This document shows positions 2,987 through 47,947 of a stretch of DNA of 50,156 nt, in pieces. Under the pieces are notes generated by a model. That model did no database searches, was not told the origin of the DNA, and saw only the letters and a list, made by a program, of their open reading frames with translations. Numbering within the stretch: position 1 is the first letter of the stretch; each line of letters begins with the position of its first letter. Source of the stretch: Acidobacteriota bacterium (lineage in GTDB: Bacteria; Acidobacteriota; Blastocatellia; UBA7656); NCBI GenBank assembly GCA_038040445.1, contig JBBPIG010000013.1, forward strand, positions 128,093 through 178,248, written 5' to 3'. A program made the translations under genes and the position numbers.

Positions 2987-4717
2987 TCAGATGGCTGAAG
3001 CGCGCATTATGGCAAGGCCGTTGCTCTCATCATGTGCGGCGTACTTCACGGCTGGGGGCAGCCCCGGTGACCAGACGTAGCAGCCGTCCGGGGTCGTCAC
3101 TAGTGGCCAGGTGGATCGACGGCTGGATGGGATTCTATGATCAATCATCAAGTTTTTCAACTTTATTGTTCGTCGCTGTCCGATGACGTGCGCGCGCTCG
3201 CCCGCGCGCCGCGACCTGATGATCAGACTCTCCGGCAACGCATCGTCGTCGAGCGCTACCATCATCCAGTCTCGTCCGTTCCGTTTCGCCTCACGCTGCG
3301 TTTCTTCAACCGTCGGCGCAAGCAGGTCACTGGACTGACCGCGGCGGAGTGTTAAGGCAAAGCCGCCCGCTTCAGCATCCGGACATGCCGGGCTGATCGC
3401 TATTTGATACGGCACGCCGGCGATGTCGGGCGCGTGCGGTTTAAGAACGAGTGCGTCGAACTCGCGCCATACTTCGAGAGTACCGGGCAGCGTAACATGT
3501 TTGCCGCTCGCGTTGGGTTCCAGTAAGGCCTCGACGGCTGTAAAATGCGCCGAAGTGATTTCGCCGGCGTCCCCGCCCTTCTCACCGGTTGCACCGGCCC
3601 GCGTGAGTCTGACTGCTTCGATAATCATCCGCTGCCTCATTCCGGCAGGCTGTTTCAGAAGCTCTGTGACCGAGTAAGCGGCTGTGGCCCTATCAACAGC
3701 TTGCGCGTTTGACGCAAGACTGGCCTTCTTGAGAAGCGCCGATGCGAGATGGTCTAACACGTCGTGATCGCCGGCGATGTTCTCTGACGCTCGGGCAATA
3801 GATTCGACGATTCGCGGATTGATCGCCCTGAGCGCTGGAAGCACCTCGTTACGTACCTGGTTGCGCGTGTATTTCAGATCCAGGTTAGTGCTATCGGTTC
3901 TGTACTCGAACCCTCGCTCCCTACAATACGCGGCGACTTCCTCGCGCGTGATGCAGAGCAGCGGACGGATAAGTAAAACCGAAGGCAGAAGGCGGAAGGC
4001 CGAAGGCAAAACAGAAGGCAGAAGGCGGAAGGCAGAAGGCAGAGATTCGTTGTCCGCCTTCTGCCTTCTGCCTTCTGCTTTCTGCGTTTCGCTTTCTGCC
4101 TTCTGCCTTCTGCCTTCTGCCTTCTCTTGGCGAAAAACGGGAAGCTCTGAAACCGGGCGCATAGCGGCGAGACCACGCAAGCCGGCCCCGCGGATGAGCC
4201 GCATTAAGAAGGTCTCGGCTTGATCGGTCATTGTGTGGCCAACCGCGATGCGATCACACCCTGCTTCGCGAGCGGCGGCAAGAAAGAAGTCGTATCGAAC
4301 CTCTCGCGCTATCTCCTCGATGCCTCGGCCGCAAGCCTCCGCAGCCGCGCGTACGTCGACCGAGTTAATCGTGATCGGAAGCCCGAGACTATGTGCAAGC
4401 GCCCGCACGAACTCTGCGTCTTCGGCTGACTCGCGGCCCCTCAGCCTGTGATCGAGATGGGCAACGTGAATGCGGGGGTTGGGGGTCGGGGGTCGGGGGT
4501 TGGAACTCTTATTCACCCGCGTTTCCACCGAGACTGCCTCTCGGTTCTTGCCACCCCCCGCCCCCCAACACCCAACCCCTGCCTTAAGCCGCACTAGCAG
4601 ATCGAGTAGGACAATCGAATCAGAACCACCCGACACTGCTACGAGTACTCCGGCCGCGCCGTCAAGCATCGAGTGTCGCTCCATGAAGCGTCGCACTGTG
4701 TTGAAGGTCGTGCTCAC
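2987..4717 (-). CDS. tilS: tRNA(Ile)-lysidine synthase with two repeat-derived insertions
   Basis: Modifies C34 of the CAU-anticodon tRNA-Ile to lysidine using ATP, changing its decoding from AUG to AUA; essential in most bacteria. The N-type PP-loop SGGSDS is at 29-34, followed by HLDHRLRGRES (87-97) and the conserved GLRGLAAM segment near 179. The C-terminal TilS domain follows. At 576 residues it is longer than usual because of two inserts: residues about 47-82, between the first strand-helix and HLDH, and about 197-248, just before the strand LIRPLL. Both inserts are translations of short inverted DNA arrays (4472-4580 and 3981-4126) and keep frame. The start is GTG at 4717 with no clear ribosome site; ATG at 4684 is an alternative but cuts close to the PP-loop. 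First gene of the tilS-hpt-ftsH set. Confidence 0.93.
   Translation of the reverse strand: MSTTFNTVRRFMERHSMLDGAAGVLVAVSGGSDSIVLLDLLVRLKAGVGCWGAGGGKNREAVSVETRVNKSSNPRPPTPNPRIHVAHLDHRLRGRESAEDAEFVRALAHSLGLPITINSVDVRAAAEACGRGIEEIAREVRYDFFLAAAREAGCDRIAVGHTMTDQAETFLMRLIRGAGLRGLAAMRPVSELPVFRQEKAEGRRQKAESETQKAEGRRQKADNESLPSAFRLLPSVLPSAFRLLPSVLLIRPLLCITREEVAAYCRERGFEYRTDSTNLDLKYTRNQVRNEVLPALRAINPRIVESIARASENIAGDHDVLDHLASALLKKASLASNAQAVDRATAAYSVTELLKQPAGMRQRMIIEAVRLTRAGATGEKGGDAGEITSAHFTAVEALLEPNASGKHVTLPGTLEVWREFDALVLKPHAPDIAGVPYQIAISPACPDAEAGGFALTLRRGQSSDLLAPTVEETQREAKRNGRDWMMVALDDDALPESLIIRSRRAGERAHVIGQRRTIKLKNLMIDHRIPSSRRSTWPLVTTPDGCYVWSPGLPPAVKYAAHDESNGLAIMRASAI
3981..4126. repeat. GAAGGCA inverted array inserted in frame in tilS
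   Basis: Left arm 3981-4044 is a run of 7-bp GAAGGCA/GAAGGCG units; right arm 4054-4126 is the reverse complement (TGCCTTC units), with a 9-bp centre. It encodes lysine/arginine/glutamate-rich and then leucine/proline/phenylalanine-rich peptide. The insert is a multiple of three in effect, since reading frame is kept through both arms. Confidence 0.85.
4472..4580. repeat. GGGGTTGGGGGTC inverted array inserted in frame in tilS
   Basis: A G-rich arm (4472-4503, units GGGGTTGG and GGGGTCGG) and a C-rich arm (4550-4580, units CCCCAACAC) are separated by about 46 bp. The array lies inside tilS at a loop after the PP-loop helix. The G-rich arm has the run pattern needed for G-quadruplex formation on the plus strand. 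Confidence 0.75.
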
Positions 4718-7550: not shown

Positions 7551-8639
7551 ATGAAGAGGTTCGTTTTGTTTAGCCGCTTCGCAGTTCTGACGCTTGCCGT
7601 CTCTGCGCTGACCATCGCCCCGTCGCTGTTCGCGGACGGTGGAGCAAACCATCAGGTCGCCAATACTAATTTCGGTGTGTCGGGTGGCAACGTCAACGAC
7701 ATCACTGCACGGTTCTGCTGCAGCGGAACGCTAGGCGCGCTCGTCACCGCCGGCGGCGTTAACTACATTCTAAGCAACAACCACGTGCTGGCGCGCGGGG
7801 ATCAGGCGGCCTCCGGAGAGGACATATCGCAACCGGGCCGGATAGACAACAACTGTCAGTTGCCACCGATTGTCGCGGATTTCACAACCGCGCCTGTGCT
7901 CGGCTCAAACGTCGATGCGGCCATTGCCCAGCTACGTTCGGGCGCAATGAACACCTCAGGCTCAATAGAAGACATCGGCACGATTAGCAGCGTGGTTAAA
8001 ACTCCAACCGTCGGGCTGGCGGTGGCAAAGAGTGGCCGGACCACTGGCTTTACTACCGGCACCATTGGGTCCATCAACACCAGCGTGAACGTTCAATATC
8101 AAAAGAATTGTGGATCTGGTAAGAAGTTTGTGGTTTCTTACACCAACCAGGTCGTGATCAACAGCACGACCTTCAGCGCCGGCGGCGACTCGGGCTCGCT
8201 GATCGTGTCTAACAACAGCGCCACCTGCCGTCAGCCGGTCGCGTTACTGTTCGCAGGCAGCAGTTCGTCGACGATTGCCAATCCCATTGGACTGGTGCTT
8301 TCGAGGCTTACCACTGCGCTTGGAACTCCAGTAAGCTTCGTAGGCGGCGCCTGCACAGCTTCGATTCTGGAACCGGTGGTGTCGGATAACCCGCAGGAGG
8401 CCGAGCTTTCGAGTGAGTCCGTCGATCGTGCGATGGAGGTCATGCAAGCCCGGGAGTACGACTTGATGTCGCGTCCGGGAGTTATCGGCGTCGGCATCGG
8501 AGCATCGGACACCGGCTCGACCGAGGCGTCCATAGTCGTCTACATCGACGTGACCACCGGGATCTCGGCGAAAGTGCCAAAGCGAATCAACGGCGTGCGG
8601 GTTAGAAAGGTGTTCACCGAACCGTTCGTAGCCTATTAG
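7551..8639 (+). CDS. Secreted trypsin-like serine peptidase
   Basis: A 362-residue exported protein. The signal peptide covers about 1-28 (KRFVLF start, hydrophobic core, cleavage near LFADG). The chymotrypsin-fold triad is readable as His78 in LSNNHVLA, Asp122 in SNVDAAIAQL and Ser214 in GGDSGSLIV. Cysteines 56, 57, 101, 187 and others could form disulfides. After about residue 275 a second small domain follows, with VDRAMEVMQAREYDL and GVIGVGIG segments, resembling the C-terminal module found on other bacterial members of this S1-like group. The substrate is unknown. The start is ATG with GGAGG 8 nt upstream. The preceding 270 nt (7281-7550) contain no gene I can support. Confidence 0.87.
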   Translation: MKRFVLFSRFAVLTLAVSALTIAPSLFADGGANHQVANTNFGVSGGNVNDITARFCCSGTLGALVTAGGVNYILSNNHVLARGDQAASGEDISQPGRIDNNCQLPPIVADFTTAPVLGSNVDAAIAQLRSGAMNTSGSIEDIGTISSVVKTPTVGLAVAKSGRTTGFTTGTIGSINTSVNVQYQKNCGSGKKFVVSYTNQVVINSTTFSAGGDSGSLIVSNNSATCRQPVALLFAGSSSSTIANPIGLVLSRLTTALGTPVSFVGGACTASILEPVVSDNPQEAELSSESVDRAMEVMQAREYDLMSRPGVIGVGIGASDTGSTEASIVVYIDVTTGISAKVPKRINGVRVRKVFTEPFVAY

Positions 8640-8671
8640 ACCTTGCACGAAAAAACACCTGTGCTAACACA

Positions 8672-8705
8672 AAGGGCCGGCCTAAAGCCGGCCCTTGCCG
8701 TTTGC
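8672..8705 (+). terminator. Stem-loop after the serine peptidase
   Basis: A perfect 10-bp stem AAGGGCCGGC / GCCGGCCCTT (8672-8681 and 8687-8696) with loop CTAAA, followed by a weak T-run. It sits 33 nt after the peptidase stop and would also end leftward transcription poorly. Confidence 0.55.
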
Positions 8706-8722
8706 GATCTGATGCAGTACTA

Positions 8723-8833
8723 ATCGGTGCGAATCCGTCAAAACCCGTTTCATCGGTGGTCTGTGAGTTACTAATGCCATTGCCAGCGCCCCATAGACCA
8801 CGGATGACGCTGATTTGGCCGATTCGCGCGGAT
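8723..8833. repeat. 44-bp-arm inverted repeat, copy A (degenerate)
   Basis: The left arm 8723-8765 and right arm 8791-8833 share the CATAGACCACGGATGACG / CGTCATCCGTGGTCTATG type sequence also found at 19425-19537 and 50105-50156. This copy has a diverged left arm. It fills the gap between the convergent peptidase and metH genes. Confidence 0.75.
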
Positions 8834-8852
8834 ATCCCTCCCTCACTAGCAG

Positions 8853-11800
8853 TCAATCGGCAGTGGCTTCGGCGAGTTCTTGAGCGCCTACCGAAAAATA
8901 AGTCGCATCCGGGTGGTGAAATACCAAAGCCGAGACGCTCGCTTCCGGTTCCATCATGAAGCCTTCGGTCAATTGAACGCCAATCTCTTCAGGATGCAAC
9001 AAGCTGAACAACCCCGCTTGCGATTCCAGGTCGGGACACGCAGGGTAGCCGAATGAATATCGCTTGCCGCGGTAGCGCGCTTGAAACAACGCCTGGCGTG
9101 ACAGATCGGGCGAGTCCGGAAACCCCCACGCTCGGCGGAGACGAGCGTGCAACCATTCGGCGGCCGCTTCGGCGGTTTCGAGCGCTAACGCTTGAAGCGC
9201 GTATGATCGCAAGTACTCGCCCGCTTGCTTCGCTTCTTCGGCGATCTCGCGGATGCCTTCGCCGGCAGTCGTGACGAACAGCGCGATGTGATCGCGGCGC
9301 CGGGTCGAGCCGTCAAAGCCCGCGGGTAAGACGAGATCGCTCAGCGCGAGGCCGTCTTCCTTGCGTTGCCGAGGAAAGCGGAAGGTTGCGACGGGATTCT
9401 CAACCGCGGAGGACGCCGAGGAAGGGTCCGGCAGCCTAAAGGCTGAACTCTGAACCTCGGGCAGCCTAAAGGCTGAACTCTGAACCTCGGGCAGCCTGAA
9501 GGCTGAACTCTGAACGTCGCCGAACAGGTTAATAGAGTTGCCTGCGGGTTCCGCCTCGAAGAATTGCCAGACGACTCGCGGTCGCATCGCACCCGCGCGG
9601 CATTCTTCTTTTACTCGGTCGATCGTCTCTTCAAGCTCCCGAGCGAGACGATCACCGGATGCGAGCAGTTCGGTGAACTTGCCACGCAAACCCATATGCC
9701 GCCCGTAGAGCATCTGCGGGTTGATGTAGCTCCATACGTCGTCGAGGTCTTCCACTTCGATCACGTGACGATCCAGATCAGGCACAGGAAGAATCGGAAC
9801 GTCGAGCGAAATCTTCGAGCTGCGTTGTTCGGTCTCGTCCACGACTACAACCGCCACCGGAGCCTTGGCACCGAGGTCTCGTTCGAGCAGCTCGCCCTCG
9901 AGCCGCGCGCGCGACTCGGGGTTCATCAAGCGATTCAAAATGTCCAGCCCGTTCATCGCGTCGTTCGCATACACCACAGTGCCGCCGTAGGCCGGCGCGA
10001 TTTTCCCGCGGGTGAAGCGATCCGATAGCGCTGCCCCGCCGACTAGCAAAGGCTGATCGATTCCCGCGTCTTTCAAATCTTCAGCCGTCAGCACCATCTG
10101 CTGCGCGGACTTCACCAACAAACCCGAAAGACCGATCGCGTCCGGCTTGTGTTCGCGCACGGCTTGAATCAAGACTTCGGGCGGAACTTTAATTCCGAGG
10201 TTCACCACCTGATAGCCGTTGTTGGACAGGATGATATCGACCAGGTTTTTGCCGATGTCGTGAACGTCGCCTTTCACCGTAGCCAGAATGATCCGGCCGC
10301 GAGAGCTGTCGGCGCTCTTCTCCATGAACTGTTCGAGATAAGAGACCGCCGCCTTCATCGCTTCGGCGCTTTGAAGCACTTCGGCGACGATCAGCTCGTT
10401 GTTGTTGAACAGGCGGCCAACCTCGGACATTCCGGCCATCAGCGGCCCGTTGATGATGTCCATCGGCGCGGCTTCTTTGAGCTTTGACTCCAGGTCGGCG
10501 AGCAAGCCTTCTTTCGTTCCTTCGATGATGTAGTTGCCGATCCTCTCGTCGAGCGGCAGATCGCTCGCTTTTTTCTTCTGCCTCGAGGTCGCGCCGCGGA
10601 AGTGCGCGGCAAACGCGGCGATCGGATCATCGCCGCGATTCCACAACAGGTCTTCGGAGAGACGCCGCTCCGCCTCGGGGATCGAGGCGTACCGTTCGAG
10701 CTTCTCTGAATTGACTATCGCCAGGTCGAGCCCGGCCTTGGTGCAGTGATACAGAAAAACCGAATTCAGCACTTCCCTTCCCGCCTCGGGCAAACCAAAC
10801 GACACGTTGCTGATGCCAAGGATCGTCTTGACGTAAGGGATCTCTTGCTTGATCAGCCGCACGCCTTCGATAGTCTCGACCGCGCTGCCGGCGTAGTTCT
10901 GATCGCCCGTCGCGCAGGGAAAGACCAGCGGGTCGATGATGATATCTTCAGTGCGGATGCCGTAGTCTTCGTTGAGCAGCTTAACTGAGCGCCGCGCGAC
11001 TTCGAGCTTCCGCTCGCGCGTGATGGCCTGGGCTTGTTCTTTATCTTCGTCGATGCACCCGACGACAAGCGCCGCGCCGTACTTGCGGGCGAGCGGCGTG
11101 ACTAGTTCGAACTTATCAAGGCCGTCTTCGAGGTTGATCGAGTTGATAATCGACTTGCCCTGACAGTAAGTGAGCGCGCGCTCGATCGCGACCGGATCGG
11201 TGGTGTCGATCATGGTCGGCGCTTTGACCACGCGGATCATCTTTTCGTAAAAGCGGTCCACGTCGTAAAGCTCTTCGCGGTCGGCGTTCTGAAGGTTCAC
11301 ATCGCAAATCTGCGCGCCGCCTTTGACTTGCTGCCGCGCGATCTCCGCTGCTTCTTCATATTTCTCGTCGGTGATCAGGCGCTTGAATTTTCGCGAGCCG
11401 ACTTCGTTTGTTCGCTCGCCGACGATCAACGGGCGCTGGTCGTCGCTGGCTTCGACAAAGTCGATTCCCGAGAACAAAGCTCGTTGATGTTTCGAGGGAA
11501 CGCGCGCGCGCGCGCCCTCGACCATCTGCGCGAGCGCGCGGATGTGCGCCGGAGTCGTGCCGCAGCAGCCTCCAACCAGATTGATCCATCCGTGATCGAC
11601 AAAGCGCTTCAATGTCGAGGCCATGCTCTCTGGAGTTTCGAGATAGATGCCGTCTTCGTTGGGCAATCCCGCGTTGGGTATGCACGAGACGCGCGTCTCA
11701 GCCAGCTCGGCGAGGCTGCGTATGCGATCGGTCATGAACTCGGGCCCGGTCGCGCAGTTCAACCCGACTGACAATAGATCCGCGTGCATCACTGAAGTCG

Positions 11801-12449
11801 CGAACGCCTCGACCGTTTGACCGGCGAGCATGGTTCCCATCGCTTCGATCGTTCCGGAGACCATCAGAGGAACCTTGAATCCGATCTCATCGAACAATCG
11901 CCAGATGCCTACGAGCGCGGCTTTCACGTTGCGAGTGTCTTGCTGGGTTTCGACTATGAGAATGTCGGCGCCGCCGGCGACCAGTCCCGCCGCTTGATCG
12001 TGAAAGTTCTCAATGAGTTGATCGAAAGTCACCCCGCCAGTGACGGATATGGCTTTAGTTGTCGGCCCCATCGAACCGGCTACAAATCGCGGCTTGTTCG
12101 TGGTCGAGAGTTCAGCCGCTGCTTGCTTTGCCAGTCGCGCCGCGGTCTCGTTCAGCTTGTGAACTTGATCCTGCAGCCCGTATTCGGCAAGGACGATCGG
12201 GGTGCCGCCGAAGGTGTTGGTCTCAATGATGTCGGCGCCGGCTTCAAGGTAGCCGCGATGAATATCGAGCACGACGTCGGGACGGGTGAGCACAAGATTC
12301 TCGTTGCAGCCTTCGAGTTGAGCGCCGCCGAAATCCTCGGCAGTGAGATAGCGCGCTTGAATAGCGGTGCCCATCGCACCATCGAGTACGAGGATGCGTT
12401 CGGCGAGCAATACTTCGAGTAACTTTGTGCGTTCCTGTCGCTCAGTCAT
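8853..12449 (-). CDS. metH: Cobalamin-dependent methionine synthase
   Basis: Transfers the methyl group of 5-methyltetrahydrofolate to homocysteine through methylcobalamin. It has 1198 residues from the ATG at 12449; a TTG two codons earlier is also possible. Domain order is normal: the homocysteine domain (about 15-325, starts VLDGAMGT, zinc cysteines in LNCATGPE and GGCCGTTP), the pterin-binding domain (about 340-610), the cobalamin cap and Rossmann domains (about 640-880, DVHDIGK with cobalt ligand His730), and the AdoMet reactivation domain (about 905-1198, ending in the GYPACPDLES and LTESFxMxPxASVS-type region). The reactivation domain carries an in-frame insertion of three 10-residue repeats near residues 978-1007. 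It ends a leftward run of genes, 32 nt after a small membrane protein gene. Confidence 0.97.
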   Translation of the reverse strand: MTERQERTKLLEVLLAERILVLDGAMGTAIQARYLTAEDFGGAQLEGCNENLVLTRPDVVLDIHRGYLEAGADIIETNTFGGTPIVLAEYGLQDQVHKLNETAARLAKQAAAELSTTNKPRFVAGSMGPTTKAISVTGGVTFDQLIENFHDQAAGLVAGGADILIVETQQDTRNVKAALVGIWRLFDEIGFKVPLMVSGTIEAMGTMLAGQTVEAFATSVMHADLLSVGLNCATGPEFMTDRIRSLAELAETRVSCIPNAGLPNEDGIYLETPESMASTLKRFVDHGWINLVGGCCGTTPAHIRALAQMVEGARARVPSKHQRALFSGIDFVEASDDQRPLIVGERTNEVGSRKFKRLITDEKYEEAAEIARQQVKGGAQICDVNLQNADREELYDVDRFYEKMIRVVKAPTMIDTTDPVAIERALTYCQGKSIINSINLEDGLDKFELVTPLARKYGAALVVGCIDEDKEQAQAITRERKLEVARRSVKLLNEDYGIRTEDIIIDPLVFPCATGDQNYAGSAVETIEGVRLIKQEIPYVKTILGISNVSFGLPEAGREVLNSVFLYHCTKAGLDLAIVNSEKLERYASIPEAERRLSEDLLWNRGDDPIAAFAAHFRGATSRQKKKASDLPLDERIGNYIIEGTKEGLLADLESKLKEAAPMDIINGPLMAGMSEVGRLFNNNELIVAEVLQSAEAMKAAVSYLEQFMEKSADSSRGRIILATVKGDVHDIGKNLVDIILSNNGYQVVNLGIKVPPEVLIQAVREHKPDAIGLSGLLVKSAQQMVLTAEDLKDAGIDQPLLVGGAALSDRFTRGKIAPAYGGTVVYANDAMNGLDILNRLMNPESRARLEGELLERDLGAKAPVAVVVVDETEQRSSKISLDVPILPVPDLDRHVIEVEDLDDVWSYINPQMLYGRHMGLRGKFTELLASGDRLARELEETIDRVKEECRAGAMRPRVVWQFFEAEPAGNSINLFGDVQSSAFRLPEVQSSAFRLPEVQSSAFRLPDPSSASSAVENPVATFRFPRQRKEDGLALSDLVLPAGFDGSTRRRDHIALFVTTAGEGIREIAEEAKQAGEYLRSYALQALALETAEAAAEWLHARLRRAWGFPDSPDLSRQALFQARYRGKRYSFGYPACPDLESQAGLFSLLHPEEIGVQLTEGFMMEPEASVSALVFHHPDATYFSVGAQELAEATAD
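9431..9517. repeat. Three 30-bp direct repeats inside metH
   Basis: Units of 30 bp (9431-9460, 9461-9490, 9491-9517) each contain the palindrome CAGCCTAAAGGCTG and encode ten residues with the core VQSSAFRLPE. They are nearly identical at DNA level and keep the metH frame. Confidence 0.88.
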
Positions 12450-40542: not shown

Positions 40543-41172
40543 TCAGAATTCATCGTCATCATCCGGCGGTTGAATATCCTGAGCGGCCAACTGCTGCCAG
40601 GCTGTCAGTATCTCTGGCTCTACTCCGGCGGCGCGGAGTGCGTCAGCGACAGGCCCGCTCGACTGTTTGAGTTCCGGGAACTGCAAAAGCAACATCGCGA
40701 TGTCTCGCCTGTCTGTAAATGACTTCGGCTGAGCCCGGCGGCGATAAAAAGAGACGACTTTGCTGGCGATCAATTCAGCCGGCGCCATCACCAGCACTCC
40801 GGCCACTCGCTGTGCCGGTGGTAGAGACTCAACGGGCCTGACATCGATGAGATGGCGATTGCCAGATTTTTGAATCTGAAATAGGCGATAGCCGCGGCCT
40901 TCACCAATCTCTCTCACGCGTACCGCAATGTGAAATCGTTGACTCAGATGCTCGCGCAACTCGCCGGCCAATTCTTTTGCGCGCGTCGAAAGAAGGTCGA
41001 TGTCCTGCGTCATCCGCGGTTCAGACACGTATGCGTTGACTGCCTGAGCGCCGAACACAACGCCATCATCACGCCCACGAAGAAACTCCAGCACCGCATT
41101 TTGGATATTAGCGAGCGGCAGGGGTTCATTCATCGCAAACTCCCTGAACGTCAAAGTGCCCGCATCGAACAT
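40543..41172 (-). CDS. Nucleotidyltransferase (AbiEii-like)
   Basis: A 209-residue nucleotidyltransferase fold. The GAQAVNAY turn (41-48) is followed by TQDIDLL (55-61), giving intact metal-binding Asp57 and Asp59, and the third acidic strand is probably HLIDVRPVE. The layout resembles AbiEii-type and related nucleotidyltransferases of toxin-antitoxin or abortive-infection modules. No partner antitoxin gene is adjacent. The ATG at 41172 has GGAGG 8 nt upstream, so the longer start at 41328 is rejected. It ends in an acidic tail (PPDDDDEF). Confidence 0.75.
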   Translation of the reverse strand: MFDAGTLTFREFAMNEPLPLANIQNAVLEFLRGRDDGVVFGAQAVNAYVSEPRMTQDIDLLSTRAKELAGELREHLSQRFHIAVRVREIGEGRGYRLFQIQKSGNRHLIDVRPVESLPPAQRVAGVLVMAPAELIASKVVSFYRRRAQPKSFTDRRDIAMLLLQFPELKQSSGPVADALRAAGVEPEILTAWQQLAAQDIQPPDDDDEF

Positions 41173-41416
41173 CGTCGGTTCCTCCAACCTAAGCGAACCA
41201 TTTTGGGAGTCGCAATAAGAAAACTCGCGACTGCGCAGGAGCATTCTATCACAGGGAAACCGGGCACTTCGGGAAACTTGAAAAGGCCGTTCGTTTGACA
41301 GCTCGCCCACCAAGCTGCTAGGGTTCATGTGAACTGAGTCCAGCTCGCTCTCTTCTCAGCCTTTCTGGAATCACCCAGACTATCTGAACTAACAGCTCAT
41401 CGAAAAGGACACGAAC

Positions 41417-41925: not shown

Positions 41926-42432
41926 GTGCTGGTTATTGGAAACAAGGTCATCTATCCGTGTCACGGCCCATGTCTTGTCAGCTCGATCATCAACAAGGTC
42001 GTTGGTGAGAGCCCGATGACATTTTATCAACTCGTCGTTCTTGATGATTCTCGAGGAACGTTGCTCGTTCCAGTAGACAAGGCCCAGGCTGTGGGCATCC
42101 GGCCGCTGTTGAACAGGCCCGAGATTTCACAGCTTCTGGATCAGCTAAAGAAACCTTCCACGGCATCCACGGATCGCAGGCAGCGCGTCCGGGACAACTC
42201 TAAACTGCTCTTATCAGGATCAGCATTTGATCTGGCCGAGATTGTCGAGTCACTGACCGAGATGATTGAAACGAAGCCGTTATCATTTGGCGAGCGCGGT
42301 ACGCTCGAGCGGGCGAAACGGCTACTGGTGTGCGAGGTATCGGAAGTGATGGGAGAGACAAAGCAAGAGGCCGAGCTACGGATTGACCAGGCTCTCGTCG
42401 CGCGAACAAGAACTAAAGCTTACGCTGCTTAA
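41926..42432 (+). CDS. CarD-like transcriptional regulator
   Basis: A 168-residue protein. The N-terminal RNA-polymerase interaction domain (about 1-60) starts VIGNKVIYPCHGPC, with the usual hydrophobic strand order, and has FYQLVVLDDSRGTLLVPVDKAQAVGIR. The C-terminal helical domain (about 70-165) contains SLTEMIETKPLSFGERGTLERAKRLL, as in CarD/CdnL proteins. It binds the polymerase beta subunit and stabilises open complexes at rRNA and other promoters. The start is GTG with GAGGAGG 9 nt upstream. The stop overlaps the end of an xisH fragment on the other strand. Confidence 0.9.
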   Translation: MLVIGNKVIYPCHGPCLVSSIINKVVGESPMTFYQLVVLDDSRGTLLVPVDKAQAVGIRPLLNRPEISQLLDQLKKPSTASTDRRQRVRDNSKLLLSGSAFDLAEIVESLTEMIETKPLSFGERGTLERAKRLLVCEVSEVMGETKQEAELRIDQALVARTRTKAYAA

Positions 42433-42628
42433 CGGCGAGACCGCCGTATTTCCTGGGCGAAGAATTCTCTATACGCCTTTTCACTCACAGCGACATAGAG
42501 CTTTAGGTCGGGCTCAGTTGCCTCAAGCAAGTAAAGATAGATGTCGTATTGGCCAAGGGCTTCTTTCAATTCCTGCAGCTTGGAAGCGCCACTAAAGGTC
42601 TTTTCAAACTGAGAGACATCGAGCCAAC
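42429..42628 (-). pseudogene. xisH-like fragment
   Basis: Reading leftward from the stop codon of the Hsp90-like gene, about 66 codons encode a segment with LKEALGQYDIYLYLLEATEPDLK and LYVAVSEKAYREFF. This is the core of the XisH family (fdxN element excision controlling factor), where EALGQY, the EPDRKLYLAV motif and YxxFF are the signature. Neither the N-terminal part nor the C-terminal part of XisH is present: it is cut by the Hsp90 gene on one side and by a stop codon at the carD end on the other. No start codon of its own was found. A remnant of a deleted xisH-xisI pair is the simplest reading. Confidence 0.7.
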
Positions 42629-45613
42629 TCAGCGGGCCTTAGTGTTTGGAGCGGCAATCTCGAACATCGAAGATTTCAGCTCGATATCTGGTGGAATGAG
42701 TTCCGAAGGCATATCCGGAATCTTTCGCCACTCAGCGACAAAGGATTTGAGTTCATCAATCCTTCCTATCGGGCCTCCGAATGGCAGCATCTTAAACAGG
42801 TTGTTACGCTGTGTCTCAGTGACGATTCCCCGTTGAGCACCGTGCATCATCGCTTCAAACCACTTGGTAAATGGATTCAAATGATTCAGCAGAACTAGGT
42901 ACAATCGCCACGCTGAGCTATGCTGACCGCCCACGTTTGTCCGAAAAATGGCAAAGCCCACTGCGTCGGTATCCTGCAAAGCCACCAAGTTGTAAGGATA
43001 GTCTGGAATGCCAATAGGTAGCTGGCGACCTAAGCCCCGAGACCAGTCTAGAGCGAAAACCTCTTCGCTAAGCCAGAGCATGCCATCAATATGACGGTTA
43101 TGAAAGAGAGGTGCACAAAATTTCCGCGCAACAAAATCGAAATCGGCACTTGTGATGACATTGCCAGTACTGGCCGAAGCTGACGCTTCCAACGACATGT
43201 TCTCTACCTCATTACGCACGCTCAATTCCCACAGTTGATTGCGATGGAAGTACGATCTGAACGTGGGCAGTGCTTTGAACTGCTCGAATGATAACAAGAC
43301 GCGCCGACCTTCAACATAGACCGGGATCAACTCATTTACAGAGCTCCATAGCGAACCGGGCGAATCGATGTCTGATTTATGAAGGAAGTAAACGGCGTCT
43401 GCTAGTCGATTCTTGTATTTCCAGCCCTCATTTGATTTTGCTAGATTGGAAGTCTTGAGGTGCTCTGTAAGCAACTCCTCACGGCGAGACACGATCTCAG
43501 CTAGCTGACTTGTGTCGTGTTGCTGTTGCAGAGATTTCCGTGAAAGAGTCGGTCCGATTCTTCCTCTATAGTCAACTCGCGCGCTCATTTGGGCTGGGCC
43601 GCCCGCATCGCCTGTCACGGCGATTCCGTGCATGCACACAGAATTGTTGGGTACTCGTATGGGTTCCGACAGCGGATGCTTGGACGATCCCCAAGATGCT
43701 CTCTGCGCCTCAGCCCAAGACTCTCCCTTTTCATCTGTATACGTCAAAACGTAGATTTCGCCTTCTATACCCGTTCGATTTATTGGGAAGGCCCTTATAG
43801 CGAAGCTTGCTCCCTCTTTGGTGACATCAGGCACCTCGCGCACGAAATCATCAGCTCCCTCCGCTCTAAGAGTCGTAACTTTGCCCAAGGCGTCTATGGC
43901 TATCGGAAACTCAACACGTCTACACCACATTGAAGCCAAGCTGGTGAGTTGGTTGAGCGCCATAGGCATCCGAAGCTGTACTTCTATTCGAGTTCCGTTA
44001 GTCGTGCGCGCGCCCTTTTCGATCAGCAAATAGTTCTTCGGACCTTTCAGAGTGAGGCGTAGGGGACCGTCGTTGCTTCGCGATGTCGGCTTATAGGTTT
44101 CGACAATAACGTGGTCACTAACTGCGAAGACTGAAAGAAAACCCAGTCCAAAGCGGCTGGTCGGAACAAAACGAAATTTGCGTCTGAACTCATCAGTCGT
44201 ATAGAAAGAACGCCCGACTTGCAGAAAATACCGCTCTATCACCTCAAGGTCCATTCCTATCCCACAGTCTTCGACGCTGAGAGAATAGACTTTCTCCAAC
44301 TTCTCAGATGAGGGATTGACGACATCTTTCAGACTCAATGTAACACTTACGGGATAGTTGATTCTGATGCCCTCTTCAACTTGGGTGGGGTATTCGGGTC
44401 GTTCAACTCCAATCTTGTCCAAATCAAGGTACATCTGGCTACGGTTAGCATCTAAGCCATTTTGGATTAACTCACGCACAAAGGCTTCGGGTAAGTCGTA
44501 AAGATCATAAATCAATCGCTGAAAGATCGCTTTTTGATCTAGCTCGAAAGTCCATCTACGAAAAATGTAGTTCGCATCGTTTGCCGAGACGATCTTGATT
44601 GTCGATTCGCTATCGTCTCCAAGCTTCGCCCTCGGGGGTTTCCAACTGCTGTGTCTAGGCGCGTGAGCCATTAGAGTCGCCGCCTTTTCGATCTCGTTGA
44701 CTATCCAAGAGCACCAGTCCTGTAACAATCTATGCTCTTCCTGATTTTGGCATTTCGCCCGTATCTCGATTTGATCTGGAGTGACCGCAAATTGACTGAT
44801 CCTCTGATACTGAGTCCAGTGGGCATAGCTGTCGGCCGGAACTGGAGACGCAGGATTTAGGAGCAGCGGGCACGCCCTATCGCTTGACATATCGAGCAGG
44901 TCACCAAGTCTGAGAAGGATTGCCATGAATCGGACGTTGACCTTCTCGCCCCGGATGTCCCTTAGCTCAGGGTATTCCTCGCGGTCTTCAAGCTCGTCGG
45001 TGCTAAGTCCATGACCAACGCAAACGCGCTCAATGGTTTCTTGTAGCATCGGGTGGTCAAAGGCGAAACGACCCAATAGCGACGGGAATTGCTGGATCAC
45101 CTTTGATGCGCGAATATGATGTTCTCTGCGAATAAACTCTGCGACAAGAAAGCGTGTTTGGAGGTCCGCGAGAAAATTGCGAGCAGTGTCATCGGGGATG
45201 TCTCGACTATAGCGAATTGATTGGACGAGGGTCCACTGTTCCCGTCTCCATTCTTCGCTTGAGATCCAACTCCTCCACCTATCAGAGTTCAATATCTCCA
45301 GTTTTTCCTGGTCCGAAGTTACCATCCCGGAGTCATGGAGATACGCTGATGCAACCAAAATGTACGCTTCAACTCCTGAGAGGCTTACCTCTGGCTCCAA
45401 CAACTCATCGTCTCTAAATAACAATCTCGAAATCTGTAGCACTATCTCATCGCTGTGCTGAATCGTGTGCCTTGTATAGTTAGGAAAAGTCTGCGGAATG
45501 TAATTGAGCCAGTTCTCCAGAACCTCACGGAGTTCACAGACCTTACCGTAGTAGGCTACATCCTTCTTCTTGAGATAGGATGTCAGTGGGGCGAGTGGCG
45601 GCTCCTTAATCAT
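42629..45613 (-). CDS. HD-domain and Hsp90-like ATPase fusion protein
   Basis: A 994-residue protein with two recognisable parts. The first (about 25-330) is an HD-type metal hydrolase fold: His53, the HD pair His93-Asp94 in SAYLHDSGM, His165/166 and His201, and the LRLGDLLDMSSDRA closing segment (Asp238). The second (about 370-640) is a GHKL ATPase related to Hsp90: ELIQNGLDANRS (381-392, with Glu381, Asn385, Asp388), DCGIGM (449-454) and SRFGLGFLSVFAVS (486-499), all three Bergerat-fold boxes. The last 350 residues match nothing I know. HD plus Hsp90-type fusions are suspected members of bacterial conflict systems; that is inference. The gene is visibly more A+T-rich than its neighbours, and it abuts the xisH fragment, both suggesting transfer. 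Confidence 0.85.
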   Translation of the reverse strand: MIKEPPLAPLTSYLKKKDVAYYGKVCELREVLENWLNYIPQTFPNYTRHTIQHSDEIVLQISRLLFRDDELLEPEVSLSGVEAYILVASAYLHDSGMVTSDQEKLEILNSDRWRSWISSEEWRREQWTLVQSIRYSRDIPDDTARNFLADLQTRFLVAEFIRREHHIRASKVIQQFPSLLGRFAFDHPMLQETIERVCVGHGLSTDELEDREEYPELRDIRGEKVNVRFMAILLRLGDLLDMSSDRACPLLLNPASPVPADSYAHWTQYQRISQFAVTPDQIEIRAKCQNQEEHRLLQDWCSWIVNEIEKAATLMAHAPRHSSWKPPRAKLGDDSESTIKIVSANDANYIFRRWTFELDQKAIFQRLIYDLYDLPEAFVRELIQNGLDANRSQMYLDLDKIGVERPEYPTQVEEGIRINYPVSVTLSLKDVVNPSSEKLEKVYSLSVEDCGIGMDLEVIERYFLQVGRSFYTTDEFRRKFRFVPTSRFGLGFLSVFAVSDHVIVETYKPTSRSNDGPLRLTLKGPKNYLLIEKGARTTNGTRIEVQLRMPMALNQLTSLASMWCRRVEFPIAIDALGKVTTLRAEGADDFVREVPDVTKEGASFAIRAFPINRTGIEGEIYVLTYTDEKGESWAEAQRASWGSSKHPLSEPIRVPNNSVCMHGIAVTGDAGGPAQMSARVDYRGRIGPTLSRKSLQQQHDTSQLAEIVSRREELLTEHLKTSNLAKSNEGWKYKNRLADAVYFLHKSDIDSPGSLWSSVNELIPVYVEGRRVLLSFEQFKALPTFRSYFHRNQLWELSVRNEVENMSLEASASASTGNVITSADFDFVARKFCAPLFHNRHIDGMLWLSEEVFALDWSRGLGRQLPIGIPDYPYNLVALQDTDAVGFAIFRTNVGGQHSSAWRLYLVLLNHLNPFTKWFEAMMHGAQRGIVTETQRNNLFKMLPFGGPIGRIDELKSFVAEWRKIPDMPSELIPPDIELKSSMFEIAAPNTKAR

Positions 45614-45710
45614 GAACCTCCGAAGCGTAACTCATTCAAGTACAACTGGCGTCCAGGCACTAAGCCCGCCTTAGATTTCTTCTGAAGGCACAAAGAGAAC
45701 AAACGCGACT

Positions 45711-47852
<2,142 letters not shown>

Positions 47853-47862
47853 GGACCCTCCA

Positions 47863-47947
47863 AATTGCCGATTGCCAATTGCCAATTGCCAAATGCGGAT
47901 TCCGGGAGTCTTCTTGAATCCGAAATCGGCAATCGGAAATCGGAAAT
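47863..47947. repeat. ATTGCCA/GAAATCGG inverted array between acn and E1
   Basis: The left arm 47863-47898 (ATTGCCGATTGCCA type units) and right arm 47915-47947 (CGAAATCGGCAATCGG type units) fill the whole gap from the E1 ribosome site to the aconitase stop codon. It is the same sequence family as 2333-2439. Confidence 0.8.

Follow-up and report, generated by a model that had tools for sequence, protein, structure and literature searches.

The DNA window analysed here is a stretch of 50,156 nucleotides (nt) from an Acidobacteriota bacterium (assembly GCA_038040445.1, contig JBBPIG010000013.1, positions 128,093 to 178,248 of the forward strand). On its minus strand lies a gene whose product of 994 amino acids (aa) almost certainly unites in one chain, judging from its sequence and from structural models, a complete HD active site, an Hsp90-type ATP-binding domain, a part resembling the Hsp90 middle domain and a variable tail. 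The open reading frame (ORF) had been singled out in an earlier interpretation made from the letters alone (the sequence-only reading), and it is real, at the coordinates and with the length given there. The gene, its parts and the features next to it are as follows.

42629-45613, minus strand: HD-Hsp90 fusion gene, 994 aa, with its ATG at 45613 and its stop codon at 42629-42631
45617-45621, minus strand: GGAGG, by its sequence a possible ribosome-binding site, 3 nt upstream of the ATG
44687-45487, minus strand: HD-CE domain, residues 43-309 (PF24391, E 6.9e-49; model of the HD part alone)
43874-44581, minus strand: Hsp90-type N-terminal ATPase domain, residues ~345-580 (HATPase_c_3, hhalign, PDB profile search)
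43376-43873, minus strand: part resembling the Hsp90 middle domain, residues ~581-746, including R692 (VIA-align; low model confidence)
42632-43375, minus strand: variable C-terminal region, residues 747-994 (low model confidence; length differs among relatives)
42432-42629, minus strand: xisH remnant directly downstream (PF08814, E 4.7e-14, profile positions 60-112 of 134)
42413-45729: stretch of 3317 bases dissimilar to the 360 bases at the equivalent place in the same-genus genome G507 (BLAST)

The N-terminal part matches HD-CE, already a named Pfam domain, with 167.3 bits against a cut-off of 27. Residues H49, H53, H93, D94, H165, H201 and D238 are all present, so that the HD metal ligands are intact as the sequence-only reading had claimed, and a retained ligand set of the type H, HD, H, H, D fits a site that binds two metals. 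An AlphaFold model of residues 1-335 has a predicted local distance difference test (pLDDT) score of 90.5. Its nearest structural match is GppA (Z 13.0, 180 residues), followed by cyclic-nucleotide phosphodiesterases (Z about 12, about 228 residues), where differences in Z below 1 count as ties and middling values in helical domains may be coincidence. Foldseek matches of the same model are weak (best E 0.038, none at 0.001), as is that of the HD protein 4lrl, which binds deoxynucleoside triphosphates (dNTPs; E 0.28), and a profile search with the HD part placed phosphodiesterases on top at E 6.9e-4, covering residues 34-97 only. On the modelled fold the domain leans to a phosphohydrolase or phosphodiesterase, with a nuclease still compatible.

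The second half of the protein is of Hsp90 type. HATPase_c_3 matches residues 376-513 with 26.9 bits against a cut-off of 25 (E 5.5e-6), and the residues of the three GHKL ATPase boxes that had been reported as intact are indeed present (E381, N385, D388, D449, G451, G453, G489, G491 and G540). Comparison by hhalign with 11 HtpG proteins gave 99.8% for the N-terminal domain only. A family profile built from 23 members and beginning at residue 345 extended further, matching HtpG in the PDB (2iop, chain residues 19-395) at E 1.2e-32, and the first 60 of its 159 PDB matches are all Hsp90-family proteins by name. In an AlphaFold model of the whole protein computed from 42 sequences (mean pLDDT 73.8), the pLDDT, taken in blocks of ten residues, is above 85 over most of the HD and ATPase domains, and VIA-align superposed residues 357-746 on residues 21-444 of HSP90B, that is, on its N-terminal and middle domains (Z 24.6, root-mean-square deviation 4.1, 308 residues). 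Residues ~581-746 resemble an Hsp90 middle domain in this superposition, in a low-confidence part of the model. They contain R692, an arginine in 75 of 80 relatives (75 of 76 without gapped rows), whose context LSRxxL resembles the conserved LPLNVSRE of HtpG and which may be the counterpart of the catalytic arginine of Hsp90. In topoisomerases, MutL and Hsp90, a basic residue is described as coming from a domain of the S5 fold (PMC2292703, drawn on here, like the other papers given by PMC number, from excerpts of its text). The window protein is nevertheless not a canonical Hsp90: the HtpG model scores 54 bits on it against a cut-off of 371, and at E 0.001 PF00183 matches none of the proteins of the window's genome, the window protein included. 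The match to the Pfam SACS domain is also weak (E 0.03). The GHKL sensor of the sequence-only reading is refined here to an ATPase of Hsp90 type with a middle-domain-like part, and which part of the protein senses is a matter of inference.

Beyond residue 746 the pLDDT is mostly lower still than in the preceding part. The segment after the middle domain is only 17-45 aa long in eight relatives (L092, L099, L103, L113, L118, L124, L129 and L133) and reaches 521 aa in L132, rows cut by contig ends aside, while the nearest relative (L089, 47% identity) stops early, at 760 aa. Across the family the HD-Hsp90 core is conserved, and the tail behind it varies and is shortened or missing in some relatives. 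The earlier statement that about 350 C-terminal residues match nothing thus holds for residues ~747-994 only and not for ~581-746, which are Hsp90 middle-domain-like.

The gene is, judging from sequence comparison, horizontally acquired and inserted relative to the same-genus genome, since it is missing at the equivalent place in G507, has the lowest third-position GC content (GC3) of the window and belongs to a patchy, phylum-mixed family. Its flanking genes are collinear in G507 and 79-81% identical. The overall GC content of the gene is 0.50, and its GC3 of 0.535 is the lowest among the 23 window ORFs of at least 200 aa (median 0.70), so that the deviating composition and the acquisition suggested earlier from it both find support. 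The adjoining xisH fragment that had been pointed out is likewise genuine; it is a remnant of 66 aa that begins at the stop codon of the fusion gene and has lost its own start and end. Upstream on the same strand lies a fused gene for a pyruvate-dehydrogenase-type E1 (45711-47885), 97 bp downstream of which the fusion gene starts, and on the other side the fusion gene is convergent with a CarD-like gene (41926-42432). The intergenic site in G507 (L088, G507:C152, about 2997-3358) holds what we take by eye to be an antitoxin-like remnant of DUF433 type, and it may be a site that collects accessory genes.

A second gene of the window has a comparable character. The AbiEii-like nucleotidyltransferase gene at 40543-41328 on the minus strand (PF08843, E 4.2e-7) has the second lowest GC3 of the window (0.594), and it is not at the equivalent place in G507, where 178 bases stand against 806 window bases. 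It is likely a second acquired conflict-type gene, and it lies more than 1 kb from the fusion gene with two genes in between.

Within the phylum the distribution is patchy. A protein like that of the window was not found in the six other genomes of its family (seven genomes compared), though frames of 365 and 712 aa in two of them (G509 and G510) match HD-CE over a shorter stretch or in part. Among 396 genomes of the phylum, 38 match the window protein, and the HD and ATPase parts are both partly covered only in G000, G059 and G257; most of the other matches are frames of 600-700 aa that cover the ATPase part only, and the loci read are HtpG-like. In the class, HD-CE was matched at E 0.001 or better in 38 of 162 genomes, in 32 of them above the cut-off, mostly with partial matches in frames of ~500 aa; frames of at least 850 aa with a nearly complete HD-CE match occur in G000, G408, G444 and G489. 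The last of these carries three full-length HD-CE/Hsp90-type genes at separate places (L070, L071 and L072). Canonical Hsp90 (PF00183) is itself found in only 19 of these 162 genomes, and in neither the window's genome nor G507.

Relatives were collected more widely from a species-level genome collection with an eight-row alignment (A3), which gave at least 590 candidate stretches and at least 327 relatives, 80 of which were kept. The alignment was needed, as the single-protein query found no relative in either the genome-contig or the viral-contig collection. The relatives span many bacterial phyla and include two archaeal records (L094 and L108). The seven HD residues and six ATPase residues (381, 385, 449, 451, 489 and 491) are jointly kept in 67 of the 80; the remaining 13 are copies split or at contig edges, one with a single change (L146) and four that lack HD ligands (L145, L150, L158 and L167). 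Three of these four (L145, L158 and L167) form a Thermodesulfobacteriota group in which the Hsp90-like half is kept and the HD ligands are lost or replaced. A further 14 copies, comprising 12 of the 14 relatives on viral contigs and two from plasmids, all keep the seven HD residues together with E381, N385, D388 and D449. On a tree of 78 rows with 14 phylum labels, 33 label changes are needed, compared with a least possible 13 and a shuffled mean of 47.6, and the window protein falls in a group with support of 100* with L089 (Pseudomonadota), L090 (Myxococcota) and L091 (Actinomycetota). The tree is a quick one, and the labels of metagenome-assembled genomes and the presence of paralogues count more against single transfers than against the mixing as a whole. 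On this sequence evidence the family is patchy and mixed across phyla. L100 (5574-12817) holds an adjacent, divergently encoded pair of family members, with a DUF4231/SLATT-like protein as neighbour.

Members of the family are also carried by mobile elements. Three of the 14 relatives on viral contigs (L201, L205 and L206) are found in P2-like prophages, in the interval from gpA to gpQ. L201 and L205, 59% identical to each other, have neighbours with replication-nicking, portal and terminase functions according to PHROGs; the placement of L206 rests on similarity to L205 proteins. With simple ORF calling, the only other ORFs between A and Q are one of 98 aa on the minus strand in L205 and two of 91 and 251 aa in L201. 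P2 itself has tin and old next to A, and the region between gpA and gpQ is described as a hotspot of anti-phage systems (PMC9122126). No DNA similar to the L205 copy was found in the E. coli genomes searched; in a phage collection the window protein and the L205 copy each match one record, the same one. The window gene itself is chromosomal and lies outside such a slot. Six plasmid records also match the window protein. Near the Pantoea copy are genes for an AAA_15/OLD-TOPRIM protein and for a UvrD-type helicase, a pair we take to be Gabija-like; recombinase and integrase genes adjoin the Hymenobacter copy, and an AbiEii gene lies farther off; and in Aliarcobacter the copy is split in two frames with a Shedu gene about 5 kb off.

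The neighbourhoods of the relatives were also compared. Clustering of 925 neighbouring ORFs from the 80 loci revealed no conserved partner, so that a fixed two-gene system was rejected. Methylases, helicases, specificity partners and nucleotidyltransferases were specifically not conserved beside the family in this clustering. The widest cluster is ABC-ATPase-like, from seven loci and at least 1.9 kb away, and small adjacent proteins recur in just two or three loci (one SLATT-like/DUF4231, and one pair without Pfam match). Among ten neighbours picked by eye, eight contain Z1, DUF1156, SLFN_AlbA_2, NACHT, DUF4231/SLATT, RloB, SIR2_2 with TPR, and AbiEii, domains that we count, partly from recall, as conflict-linked; the other two (at L121 and L138) have none. 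In a comparison with a control, PADLOC models were run on two ORFs of at least 120 aa per side at 28 loci, chosen from the 80 mainly for long contigs, giving 110 near proteins to set against 111 from other regions of the same contigs. At E 1e-8, 167 models were matched near the family compared with 81 in the control, and at E 1e-60, 23 compared with 7 (12 and 4 system names), these being counts of models rather than proteins, in which one protein can match several, with ORFs called by a longest-first script. The excess of defence models matched near the relatives is no more than suggestive. At L074 a protein of 1224 aa (8525-12196, plus strand) combines a caspase, iHD-CE and an Hsp90-like ATPase region, the last by BLAST to the window protein, and its neighbours include a TIR protein and a TIR/NACHT/TPR protein.

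Taken together, the observations make a role of the HD-Hsp90 gene in conflict or antiviral defence probable, because both active sites are kept together across phyla, copies are carried by phages and plasmids, some occupy the gpA-gpQ slot, and conflict-linked genes are among the neighbours. The compact single-gene effector proposed in the sequence-only reading remains the best-supported candidate, from the insertion, the patchy family, the P2 slot and the conflict-linked neighbours. Nor are the homologues confined to housekeeping contexts, the finding that had been named as speaking against the proposal, although several do lie among ordinary genes. We favour with some confidence the fuller reading in which the gene was acquired horizontally, acts on its own in the conflict of hosts with viruses or other mobile elements, and encodes a clamp that gates an HD enzyme. 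Several observations weigh against it. The window gene is surrounded by metabolic genes, outside any defence island, and the copies in G059, G257, G408 and G489 have ordinary-looking neighbours with no clear defence genes by eye. The control regions also hold Hachiman, reverse transcriptase and AbiEi matches, which makes the neighbourhood control a weak one. Only three of the 14 viral-contig relatives are in the gpA-gpQ slot, L201 and L205 are about 25% identical to the window protein and L206 is less clearly related. Furthermore, the position of G451 is an alanine in L201 and L205, arginine at the position of R692 is kept in just 9 of the 14 further copies (with K in two, H in one and Q in two), the pLDDT of ten-residue blocks over residues 581-746 is 40-78, and the fold does not fix the substrate of the HD domain.

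In the mechanism that we propose, the variable tail or the middle domain would sense a trigger, for example a phage protein or a host factor altered by a phage, upon which the Hsp90-like half would bind ATP and close as a clamp. Clamp closure would reposition the N-terminal HD domain, which would then hydrolyse a second messenger, a nucleotide or a nucleic acid, and phage growth would be stopped, probably with some harm to the infected cell itself. The assignment of the HD domain as effector and of the Hsp90-like half as switch is evenly poised, and the choice of any one particular HD substrate is doubtful.

Three rival explanations were weighed. If the HD domain removed a signalling nucleotide under the control of the Hsp90-like half, the protein would be a regulator of the host response or, in the phage copies, a means of counter-defence. 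The proximity of the HD-only model to GppA and the cyclic-nucleotide phosphodiesterases, and the rank of phosphodiesterases in the profile search, albeit over residues 34-97 only, would fit such a messenger phosphodiesterase, and carriage by phages fits counter-defence as well as defence; but the Foldseek matches are weak, the middling Z values of a helical domain may be coincidental, many copies are chromosomal and outside phage contigs, and the cargo known from the gpA-gpQ slot is defensive (PMC9122126). We regard this as rather unlikely. That the HD domain instead cuts phage DNA or RNA, with the Hsp90-like clamp loading or licensing it, agrees with a ligand set suited to a two-metal site and with the coupling of GHKL ATPases to nucleases described in restriction-modification systems (PMC2292703). 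Such an ATP-gated nuclease is nevertheless unlikely, with no methylase, helicase or specificity partner conserved beside the family and with phosphohydrolases ranked before nucleases, themselves still compatible, in the fold comparison.

Very unlikely is a housekeeping variant, an Hsp90 paralogue that acquired an HD domain and serves ordinary proteostasis, perhaps in place of HtpG. The C-terminal half is Hsp90-like, and the window's genome, having no PF00183 match, has no canonical Hsp90 for that job. However, canonical Hsp90 is rare in the class and G507 has neither protein, so that neither seems required; the distribution is patchy, phylum-mixed and in part phage-borne, and the window protein falls below PF00183 and far below the HtpG cut-off. 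A conflict gene with a clamp-gated HD enzyme remains the reading that we prefer.

More tentatively, the HD-Hsp90 proteins may constitute a widespread group of anti-phage systems, each made of a single gene and so far missing from lists of such systems, in which an Hsp90-like clamp powered by ATP, its C-terminal region being exchangeable, would detect infection and set the fused HD enzyme free. Hsp90 is a general chaperone, and if this proposal is true, an Hsp90-type receptor or switch would exist in bacterial immunity, with the Hsp90 machinery turned into an immune switch in prokaryotes, and the family would allow the reach of the Hsp90 ATPase cycle to be tested cleanly with a single gene. With hundreds of relatives in one species-level collection the family is common, and PADLOC has no model for the fusion. 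When its models were run against 42 family members at E 1e-5, none covered the whole fusion and only RT_UG24 matched, in 16 of the 42 and, in the window protein, through the HD part; the window protein also matches the REase_II model weakly (E 0.012). The literature searched, mostly outside subscription journals, yielded no account of an HD-Hsp90 defence gene, and no HD-Hsp90 protein turned up in the excerpts of PMC8195603, PMC11090510, PMC7159879, PMC9122126 and PMC9519451.

Compared with known systems, the family shares with HtpG and Hsp90 the N-terminal ATPase and, in the model, the middle domain, HtpG being the best PDB match of the family profile, but it adds an N-terminal HD enzyme, the window protein is not recognised by PF00183 and lies far under the HtpG cut-off, and the C-terminal region is variable or missing. 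Sacsin, which ends in HEPN, also joins an Hsp90-like ATPase to a conflict-linked domain (PMC3710099), whereas here this domain is HD rather than HEPN and is N-terminal, and the SACS match is weak. In the Clover system, CloA is an HD dNTPase that acts as a regulated anti-phage effector; its C-terminal part is a helical bundle, and its partner CloB makes a nucleotide (PMC12265719); the HD enzyme is common to both, but the present family has an Hsp90-like half and no conserved partner. GHKL ATPases with fused or stand-alone nuclease domains occur in restriction-modification systems, and the MORC and paraMORC proteins of conflict systems likewise combine a GHKL ATPase with a middle (S5) domain (PMC2292703), although they act with restriction-modification partners, unlike the single-gene, Hsp90-type proteins described here. 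RT_UG24, a defence-associated reverse transcriptase of the DRT group in PADLOC, matches the HD part of the window protein with its C-terminal positions 699-906 of 1036 (E 7.9e-12), but it is a reverse transcriptase protein model and leaves the Hsp90 half unmatched. With tin and old of P2, the copies at L201, L205 and L206 share the cargo slot beside gpA, although the proteins are unrelated. The HD-CE domain as such is already known; what would be new is a single-gene conflict system with an Hsp90-type switch.

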